Assembly (NCBI GenBank): GCA_027484085.1
Contig: JAIXQF010000001.1
Span: 68,742-132,741, forward strand
Origin: Actinomycetales bacterium
GTDB taxonomy: Bacteria > Actinomycetota > Actinomycetes > S36-B12 > UBA5976
DNA length: 64,000 nt
Reading direction: 5' to 3'
The stretch's first letter is position 1. Every line of letters starts with the position of its first letter. Both the position numbers and the translations under genes were made by a program. The notes below the pieces were generated by a model. That model was not told the origin of the DNA. It saw nothing but the letters and a program-made list of their open reading frames with translations, and made no database searches. Shown here piece by piece: positions 1,521-5,085 of the stretch.

Positions 1521-1601
1521 ATGTCGAGAACCACAGTGTTGATAAAGCGCCGAGTCGTTGACTATGGCCGCCTTGGTTCTTCGATGTGTATGTGCTCTTG
1601 A
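1521..1601 (+). CDS. Putative Cys-containing leader peptide (26 aa) MSRTTVLIKRRVVDYGRLGSSMCMCS
   Basis: Not in ORF track; read directly. Matches the actinobacterial leader-peptide pattern (L-x-K-R-R-x-V-D-x-x-R-x-x-S..C); two Cys codons next to the stop; TATGGT -10-like hexamer 7 nt upstream of the ATG suggests leaderless start. Confidence 0.6.
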   Translation: MSRTTVLIKRRVVDYGRLGSSMCMCS

Positions 1602-1604
1602 TTT

Positions 1605-1626
1605 TGCAGTCCTGATGCTGGCTGCA
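1605..1626 (+). promoter_or_regulatory. Hairpin immediately downstream of leader peptide; candidate attenuation element
   Basis: TGCAGTC...GGCTGCA, 7-bp stem with one G-T pair, starting 4 nt after the leader stop codon. Confidence 0.35.
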
Positions 1627-1669
1627 CTCAACGTAAGCCAACTTAAATCGGACCTGAAAAGGAAATTCA

Positions 1670-2125: not shown

Positions 2126-2971
2126 ATGAGTAACCAAGCGCTAGTAGATGCCGAATGGGCATTAGCCCATTTAGATGATGCCAAAGTAGTTTTCATTGAA
2201 GTTGATGAAGACACCGAAGCGTATGCCGGCAACCACATCCGTAATGCAATTGCACTGAACTGGAAGACCGATCTTCAGGATCCAATTCGTCGCGACTTTG
2301 TTAACAAGCAACAGTTTGAAGCTCTTCTAAGCGCCAAGGGTGTTTCTAATGATGACACCGTTGTGCTTTACGGCGGAAACAACAACTGGTTCGCTGCCTA
2401 CGCATTCTGGTACTTCAAGCTTTATGGCCATGGCGATGTTCGCTTGCTAGATGGTGGCCGCAAGAAGTGGGAACTAGATGGTCGCGAGTTAGTTAGCGAA
2501 GTTCCAAGTCGCGCTGCAACAACGTATGTTGCAAAAGATCAGGATCGTTCAATTCGCGCTTTCCGTGAAGATGTACTTAAGGCGATCGGAACTCAGAATC
2601 TTGTCGATGTTCGCAGTCCGGATGAGTACGCAGGTCGTTTACTTGCGCCAGCTCACTTACCGCAAGAAGCTGCACGCATCGGTGGACACATTCCAACGGC
2701 TGCAAACATTCCATGGAGTAAGGCTGCCAACGAAGATGGTTCCTTCAAGTCCATCGATGAACTGAAGGCCCTTTATGAAGGTGCTGGTGTTGATCTAAAC
2801 AAGGACACCATCGCTTACTGCCGAATTGGCGAACGTTCCGCCCACTCATGGTTTGTATTGCACGAGTTGCTAGGCGTGAAGAACGTAAGCAACTACGACG
2901 GTTCATGGACTGAGTACGGCTCACTTGTTGGTGTTCCGGTAGCTGTTGGCGACGAACCGGGTGACGCATGA
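2126..2971 (+). CDS. Thiosulfate sulfurtransferase, two rhodanese domains (CysA2/SseA-like)
   Basis: Active-site loop CRIGERS; rhodanese motifs DVRSPDEYAG, GHIPTAANIPW. Confidence 0.9.
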   Translation: MSNQALVDAEWALAHLDDAKVVFIEVDEDTEAYAGNHIRNAIALNWKTDLQDPIRRDFVNKQQFEALLSAKGVSNDDTVVLYGGNNNWFAAYAFWYFKLYGHGDVRLLDGGRKKWELDGRELVSEVPSRAATTYVAKDQDRSIRAFREDVLKAIGTQNLVDVRSPDEYAGRLLAPAHLPQEAARIGGHIPTAANIPWSKAANEDGSFKSIDELKALYEGAGVDLNKDTIAYCRIGERSAHSWFVLHELLGVKNVSNYDGSWTEYGSLVGVPVAVGDEPGDA

Positions 2972-3273
2972 GCGGTTGCGGCGCAGTAGTCGGTGGCGTC
3001 TCGTTAGACAACATCGACATATCAACACAGGCAGTCATCCAGGGTGTAATCACGTACGGAGATGTTCCAGCCAGTGTTGGTTATGCCCGCTTACTGGATC
3101 GAAACGATGAATTCGTTGCTGAGGTTCCGATCTCAAAACAAGGCGAGTTTCGTTTCTTTACGGTTTCAGGCGATTGGACCATAGTTGCCCTGATTCCAGG
3201 GTCCAATAGTCGAACTCAGGTAACGGCTGAGCTTGGAAAAGTTCTAGACGTAGACATCGTTATACCTAAATAA
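2968..3273 (+). CDS. DUF1416 family protein (SseC-like)
   Basis: MSGCGAVVGG start, overlaps sulfurtransferase stop (ATGA); known synteny. Confidence 0.85.
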   Translation: MSGCGAVVGGVSLDNIDISTQAVIQGVITYGDVPASVGYARLLDRNDEFVAEVPISKQGEFRFFTVSGDWTIVALIPGSNSRTQVTAELGKVLDVDIVIPK

Positions 3274-3285
3274 ATTAATACCTAA

Positions 3286-3317
3286 AAAGGCTGGTTTTCT
3301 TCGGAAAGCCAGCCTTT
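3286..3317 (+). terminator. Rho-independent-like terminator, UUCG tetraloop (copy 1)
   Basis: AAAGGCTGGTTTTCTTCGGAAAGCCAGCCTTT, 14-bp stem with one G-T pair, TTCG loop. Confidence 0.85.
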
Positions 3318-3426: not shown

Positions 3427-5085
3427 ATGAATCCTTACAGAAAGCTCTTTTTCATGCCTGCAAAAAAATTACGAAAAATTTCGATTGCTGCGATTTTTGC
3501 ACTTGTTGCCACACTTTTCCAAGGTGCCTCGCTGAGCCCAGCTTCTGCCGCACCGGTTTATAGCGGCAGCGTTAGTGTGACACGCGCTTACGACTCCGAT
3601 ACCAACAGCATTCAGGCTTATTCAGGGGAACGCCTTTACGTGAATTTTCGGTATGACGTAAATGTGACCTCTGTTGAATCGGGAGATGAACTTACTTTCG
3701 ACGATCTCGAGAATGAAATAACAGGTCTTTCAGCACAATGGAACATCAATAACAACTACATGAACCGAGTTACCGCACTTACATACACTGTTCCAGATCC
3801 CAAGCCAACTTCAATCGAATTGACTGTGTCTAAGACCTTGACCCCCTCGGCTAATGGACCAATTAAATTTGATCCAGTTGTAACAACTGACGGTGCTACC
3901 TTGACGGCAAATAGCACATATACAAGTGCCAGCTTGAACACATCGATAACATCTGCCGGATATACGGCAAAAGACGGAGACCAGTACCTCTATTACTATG
4001 GCAGCGTTTGCGTTGATATGGCACAGGTAGCTGCCGACGACGAATTAGTGCTGTCAACAACAATCACGGGATCACCTACTACGACCTCAAATACGACGTC
4101 TTGGTATGGTCCCAACGGAATGTCAATAAATGCCATTTCGCCTCAGACTGATCTCGAAAGAACGGTACCGTCTCCAGAACCTACACAAATTTCCGCGTCA
4201 TTTAACAGAGGATTCTCGGGTCTAACCTCAGGCTTTAAATACACTTTTTCTGCCGAAATTGAGAGTGAAGGCACCTCGGTGGGCATAACTTGCCCGTTAC
4301 TTCCTGGCCCAACACCTGGTTTATTTCCAGTGGGTGGCGCTTCAGTTACTGGAACTTTCTCAGTCGGTTCCAAGATTACGGTCACTCCAAACAAGTGGTC
4401 TCTTACAAATGGTGGTGCAGTAGTTGCCGCAGCAACTACCGAATACGACTGGTATCTCTGCACTACTCCGCTAACAGCCGCAACGACTGACTTTACGCAA
4501 ATCGAATGTTTCCAAGATCAGCCTGAACAAGTCTTAGCTAGTGGAACCTCAATCGGTTACACAGATGGCCCAAATCAGGGATTTACCGGAGCGTCATTGA
4601 CTATAACTCAGGGTCTTTTAACATCAATGACTGGAAAATACTTGATGGTAATCGTGAATGGGGCATCTGGCTCTGGCATGTCCCTCAAGCGCGGAGATTT
4701 GTTCATGAAAACCTGTGGACCTATCGCTTCGGGCTCAACCTGTTCATCGACCTATGGAACCCCTGTAGCACCAGCCAAGAAGACCCCGAAGGCTGCGACT
4801 GTTGCGACAAAGGTGAAAGTCGGAAAGACATTCACAATTTCGCTTCATTCATCTAAGGGAACAGCATCAAAGGGCGCGAACTCCGATGGTCTTGCTGCGG
4901 TAGTTTCGGTTGCTTCAGCTTCCAAGGCGTTCTGCTCAGTGACCAAGATCGTAAAGAGTAAGAAGATCACTGGTTACACAGTCAAGGGTCTTAAGGCTGG
5001 CAAGTGTTCAGTTGTCGTTGCCATCTCAGGTAGCTCAACTTTCAATGCCTCATCTAAGACAACCGTTGTGACGGTTTCCAAGTAG
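3427..5085 (+). CDS. Secreted/cell-surface protein with signal peptide and Lys-rich C-terminal Ig-like region
   Basis: N-terminal basic-hydrophobic-ASA signal (LFQGASLSPASAAP); Ser/Thr-rich; C-terminal AAVVSVASASKAFCSVTKIV..KAGKCSVVVAISG. Alternative start ATG at 3454. Confidence 0.7.
   Translation: MNPYRKLFFMPAKKLRKISIAAIFALVATLFQGASLSPASAAPVYSGSVSVTRAYDSDTNSIQAYSGERLYVNFRYDVNVTSVESGDELTFDDLENEITGLSAQWNINNNYMNRVTALTYTVPDPKPTSIELTVSKTLTPSANGPIKFDPVVTTDGATLTANSTYTSASLNTSITSAGYTAKDGDQYLYYYGSVCVDMAQVAADDELVLSTTITGSPTTTSNTTSWYGPNGMSINAISPQTDLERTVPSPEPTQISASFNRGFSGLTSGFKYTFSAEIESEGTSVGITCPLLPGPTPGLFPVGGASVTGTFSVGSKITVTPNKWSLTNGGAVVAAATTEYDWYLCTTPLTAATTDFTQIECFQDQPEQVLASGTSIGYTDGPNQGFTGASLTITQGLLTSMTGKYLMVIVNGASGSGMSLKRGDLFMKTCGPIASGSTCSSTYGTPVAPAKKTPKAATVATKVKVGKTFTISLHSSKGTASKGANSDGLAAVVSVASASKAFCSVTKIVKSKKITGYTVKGLKAGKCSVVVAISGSSTFNASSKTTVVTVSK

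Follow-up and report, generated by a model that had tools for sequence, protein, structure and literature searches.

In the classical trpL and leuL attenuators, a short ORF ahead of the pathway operon carries the regulatory codons towards its end. In mycobacteria, a Cys-rich upstream ORF (uORF) preceding cysA2/Msmeg_5788 has been reported together with its occupancy in ribosome profiling, and the same study proposes that it directs attenuation by cysteine (PLoS Genet 2015, PMC4633059). According to citations in two later papers, small ORFs of this kind have been shown by experiment to attenuate translation in response to cysteine in M. smegmatis (PMC13236596, PMC9031893).

The leader studied here, found in a stretch of 64,000 nucleotides of an actinobacterial genome (the window), is a new, divergent example of this already described type of probable cysteine switch. 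Rereading of the sequence located the ORF, its TATGGT box, both Cys codons and the hairpin past the stop codon at the positions given by the initial annotation. The features of the leader and the operon that it precedes are as follows.

1509-1514, + strand: TATGGT, a -10-like TANNNT box, 6-nt spacer to ATG 1521
1521-1601, + strand: leader peptide ORF MSRTTVLIKRRVVDYGRLGSSMCMCS, 26 codons, ATG 1521, TGA 1599-1601, by direct sequence reading
1521-1587, + strand: predicted leader-internal hairpin, AUGUCGAGAACCA (1521-1533) with GGUUCUUCGAUGU (about 1574-1587), p 0.01 versus shuffles
1587-1589, + strand: UGU, conserved Cys codon and probable sensor, 14 codons past the K of KRR
1593-1595, + strand: UGC, second Cys codon, variable among relatives
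1593-1605, + strand: leader-end strand (second Cys codon, Ser, stop, UUUU), predicted duplex partner of the DUF4395 start region
1605-1626, + strand: hairpin TGCAGTC (1605-1611)/GGCTGCA (1620-1626), 7 pairs including one G-U, 8-nt loop
1659-1663, + strand: AAGGA, Shine-Dalgarno-like site of DUF4395, by sequence reading
1663-1676, + strand: partner strand AAAUUCAAUGAGCA, including the DUF4395 start codon, by duplex prediction
1670-2095, + strand: DUF4395 protein (PF14340, E 1.1e-38), first gene of the operon
2126-2971, + strand: rhodanese-type sulfurtransferase (CysA2-like), by profile matches
2968-3273, + strand: DUF1416 protein (PF07210, SseC-like), 4-base overlap with the preceding sulfurtransferase gene
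3286-3317, + strand: terminator-like stem-loop 3' of the operon, 14 pairs

The spacing of the box predicts that transcription starts at or next to ATG 1521, i.e., that the transcript is leaderless; in a promoter scan, no complete sigma-70 consensus turned up at the TATGGT box. The divergent neighbours of the leader and operon encode a GlnR-type regulator (PF21695; 149-850, - strand) and a thioredoxin-like protein whose N-terminus is hydrophobic (935-1366, - strand), and downstream of the operon lies the gene of a large, secreted-looking protein (3427-5085).

The best NCBIfam match of the leader is the Ms5788A Cys-rich leader, NF042933 (17.3 bits, E 0.0028). Since this score falls below the curated cut-off of 45 bits, we file the leader as a divergent counterpart of NF042933 and not as a member by the rule of the model. 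Bridging leaders score 25.8 bits (a near relative of the window), 46.5 bits (Streptomyces) and 61.1 bits (Micromonospora), and these graded scores place the window leader at the divergent end of one series. Like Ms5788A/NF042933 and the mycobacterial cysA2/Msmeg_5788 uORF, the window leader is followed by an operon of the DUF4395-sulfurtransferase-DUF1416 type, a site that its relatives share, and it has the KRRxVD block and C-terminal Cys codons, with intermediates linking it to the members of NF042933; the spacing of its box fits a leaderless start like theirs. It differs from Ms5788A in having Gly in place of the inner Cys (position 8 from the K of KRR), and two separated Cys codons instead of a Cys run. 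The xRRxVDxxR...C plan is also that of NF042934 (cis_reg_atten, "putative leader peptide") and NF042936 (Ms4527A leader), which match paralogous leaders of Streptomyces that precede other genes; neither profile matched the window peptide in the NCBIfam search, and no Rfam family scored above chance. As in trpL and leuL, the Cys codons lie near the end of the ORF and the operon follows downstream, but no terminator separates the window leader from the operon, its start is predicted to be leaderless, and control is predicted to act on translation initiation of the next gene. A further NF042933 match in the same genome (L123:1500-1560, ITKRRAVDLASVA, KRRAVDL-like) was judged to be due to chance, because it runs opposite a transketolase frame, lacks Cys in its terminal part and has no equivalent in 22 genus relatives.

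Conservation of the leader was assessed in 110 loci, retrieved by means of the downstream sulfurtransferase from 60 relatives and a public genome collection. An in-frame [KR][KR]RxxD...C leader with a short tail precedes the operon in 102 of them, and a TANNNT box is located 6-8 nt 5' of the start in all but one of these leaders (101/102; start codon ATG in 84 and GTG in 17). Of the other loci, L002, L009 and L013 begin inside or after DUF4395, so that the leader is cut off; L091 carries an SRR variant, and in L016, from another genus of the same family, the operon is present and a recognisable leader was not found. The frame, the motif and the -10 box recur from the genus of the window out to Streptomyces and Micromonospora. 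Among 14 near relatives (17 aligned codons), the differences at codon positions 1, 2 and 3 number 170, 147 and 654, respectively, and 539 codon differences are synonymous versus 237 non-synonymous, although 74% of the possible single changes would be non-synonymous. Because divergence is mainly synonymous and at third positions, we infer that the ORF encodes a translated peptide under selection. The initial annotation had made its idea depend on conservation of the frame; with the frame kept across relatives, the idea survives. Conservation of the leader is beyond chance, and the element is old within the class.

We consider it likely that the leader is a leaderless, translated peptide through which the DUF4395-sulfurtransferase-DUF1416 operon is adjusted to the supply of cysteine, by translational attenuation. 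The transcript would begin at or beside ATG 1521, and ribosomes would load on its 5' AUG and read the short ORF. With ample Cys-tRNA, the ribosome would complete the leader and depart, allowing 1593-1605 to pair with 1663-1676 and thereby hiding the DUF4395 start codon. With Cys-tRNA in short supply, it is predicted to pause at UGU 1587-1589 or UGC 1593-1595. The footprint of a ribosome extends about 12-13 nt past the start of its A-site codon and would, from the Cys codons, cover the leader-end strand; with this strand masked, the DUF4395 start codon would be exposed and the sulfur genes translated. The sequence provides for this scheme a conserved, translated-type ORF, a Cys fixed in position and codon, the geometry of the -10 box, the predicted pairing and a stretch up to the operon without an intrinsic terminator; where transcription starts, that ribosomes stall and in which direction expression responds are inferred. 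The earlier proposal that Cys availability tunes the operon through ribosome stalling gains support from the conserved frame, motif, box and position, from the best match being Ms5788A, from the mycobacterial counterpart, for which PMC4633059 proposes attenuation by cysteine, and from the translational attenuation cited for M. smegmatis. If correct, a small-genome actinobacterial lineage would join those in which a cysteine-responsive leader controls the sulfurtransferase operon.

The Cys codons follow a rule of their own. Numbering from the K of KRR as 1, Cys15 lies 14 codons on; the search did not ask for it. Of the 93 distinct leaders, 91 have this Cys, 7 leaders having a single Cys only, and its codon is TGT in 110 of the 111 leaders with a Cys there, against a local background of 27% TGT. 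The inner Cys8, in turn, is encoded by TGC in 85 of 91 leaders. A class-wide pattern survey, tallied on a subset of distinct sequences that are related to one another, gave TGT at Cys15 in 52/52 leaders outside family f82 and TGC at Cys8 in 42/43; in family f82 this subset had 14 TGT and 6 TGC at Cys15. Given this relatedness, a p-value on such counts is not to be taken at face value. Two readings can be given: either UGU is read more slowly and is, therefore, the sensor, or a constraint on the RNA acts on UGU. The leader-internal hairpin, which reaches p<=0.05 in 34/92 loci, would pair the UGU in many clades; it was rejected as the sole cause of the constraint, because most Micromonosporaceae loci lack it beyond shuffles and nevertheless use TGT. 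That UGU hardly varies in leaders with UGC for the inner Cys suggests that a single codon does the sensing. The UGU rule is the newest part of our findings; the passages of literature consulted do not mention that UGU stays nearly constant at one set distance from KRRxVD, and it may have been reported before.

A refinement compatible with translational attenuation is that the KRRxVDxxR block, lying in the exit tunnel, makes the arrest at UGU specific, so that the leader would work as an arrest peptide responsive to Cys-tRNA instead of as a mere run of hungry codons. The distance from the KRR block to the UGU may resemble the spacing in the TnaC arrest peptide. Across the 93 distinct leaders, R2, R3 and D6 do not change, although the codons for them do; this invariance is partly a product of the search, which demanded [KR][KR]R..D. 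The constancy of Cys15 and the single-Cys leaders fit the refinement as well, and the Streptomyces paralogous leaders, located before other genes, keep both the block and the UGU spacing. On the other hand, the block could be conserved for RNA folding or for initiation of the leader. We regard as tentative, and on balance rather unlikely, both this refinement and its wider form, in which the actinobacterial Cys leaders constitute one superfamily of nascent-chain-assisted sensors with a fixed [KR][KR]RxVDxxRxxxxx-UGU geometry, UGU sensing and a basic block that makes the pause specific.

For translational attenuation by pairing at the DUF4395 start, the folding predictions are as follows. The duplex between 1593-1605 and 1663-1676 has an energy of -13.4 kcal/mol versus a shuffled mean of -7.1, and none of 200 dinucleotide shuffles was as good. 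The leader-end pairing is also significant, with different sequences, in L008, L014 and L017, and borderline in L010; taken alone, it is significant in only 4 of the 16 genus loci, and in the set from other clades as a whole the leader-end duplex is no better than shuffles (-10.45 vs. -10.39). As a control, the 5' part of the leader was paired with the start region, which gave no significant case. In relatives outside the genus, where the Shine-Dalgarno site pairs with the leader, it does so mostly with codons 17-19. An ungapped search for anti-Shine-Dalgarno stretches found 12 of 56 loci with one in the expected zone; 200 shuffles averaged 5.9 such loci and reached 12 at most, so that the result is no more than suggestive. 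The average cost of opening the start region is 7.1 kcal/mol when the leader is whole, and 3.9 and 2.7 when a ribosome sits on the first and second Cys position, respectively; on their own these costs are weak support, because removing 5' sequence trivially lowers pairing. The fold of the whole 170-nt leader is no better than shuffles (z -1.06). Given that the pairing is significant in few loci and that the overall fold is ordinary, the translational model is likely, not proven. Sequestering of the Shine-Dalgarno site by the stretch past the stop codon alone, with a hairpin just past the stop, fits L003-L007 only, and not the window.

The TGCAGTC/GGCTGCA hairpin, to which the initial annotation had drawn attention, is present as described, starts at the fourth base past the stop codon and occurs in close relatives. 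It probably does not do the work itself: the RNA element with better support is the duplex between 1593-1605 and 1663-1676, and in several relatives a different pairing beats the hairpin. The hairpin is probably a competing (anti-sequestering) fold, or incidental. It has no U tract, and a terminator scan found no terminator-like stem followed by a T run between the leader and DUF4395 (1601-1670). Both observations argue against transcriptional attenuation, in which a ribosome held at the Cys codons, or one that finishes the leader, would govern Rho-dependent or other termination before the operon; PMC13236596 also describes the mycobacterial cases as translational attenuation. Premature termination linked to uORFs and to Rho has been described in M. 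tuberculosis, and the 68-nt gap between the leader and DUF4395 could hold a Rho entry site, but we consider transcriptional attenuation improbable here. That the peptide is a small functional protein acting in trans, as purifying selection on it would allow, is hardly credible, because its position before the same operon is kept, its N-terminal part and tail drift, and UGU is constrained beyond the amino acid, which a trans-acting peptide would not need.

Leaders of the same plan were also observed before other genes. In Streptomyces (L180, L182, L183, L184 and L185), paralogous leaders such as LTRRRHVDLARVSSASC, each of which has TGT as the putative sensor codon, precede flavin-reductase-like, monooxygenase-like or acyl-CoA-dehydrogenase-like genes, as named from their translations; a codon-pattern search for such Streptomyces paralogues used too loose a pattern and returned mostly chance matches. 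In family f82 (L167:8147; L168, - strand, 8124; L170:7682), a leader of like plan, KRRVIDYCRITSTSC followed by a stop, stands before the gene of a rhodanese that seems to carry a signal peptide, after which comes another membrane-protein-like frame. The leaders of L167 and L170 have a seeming Shine-Dalgarno-like site and may, hence, be leadered.
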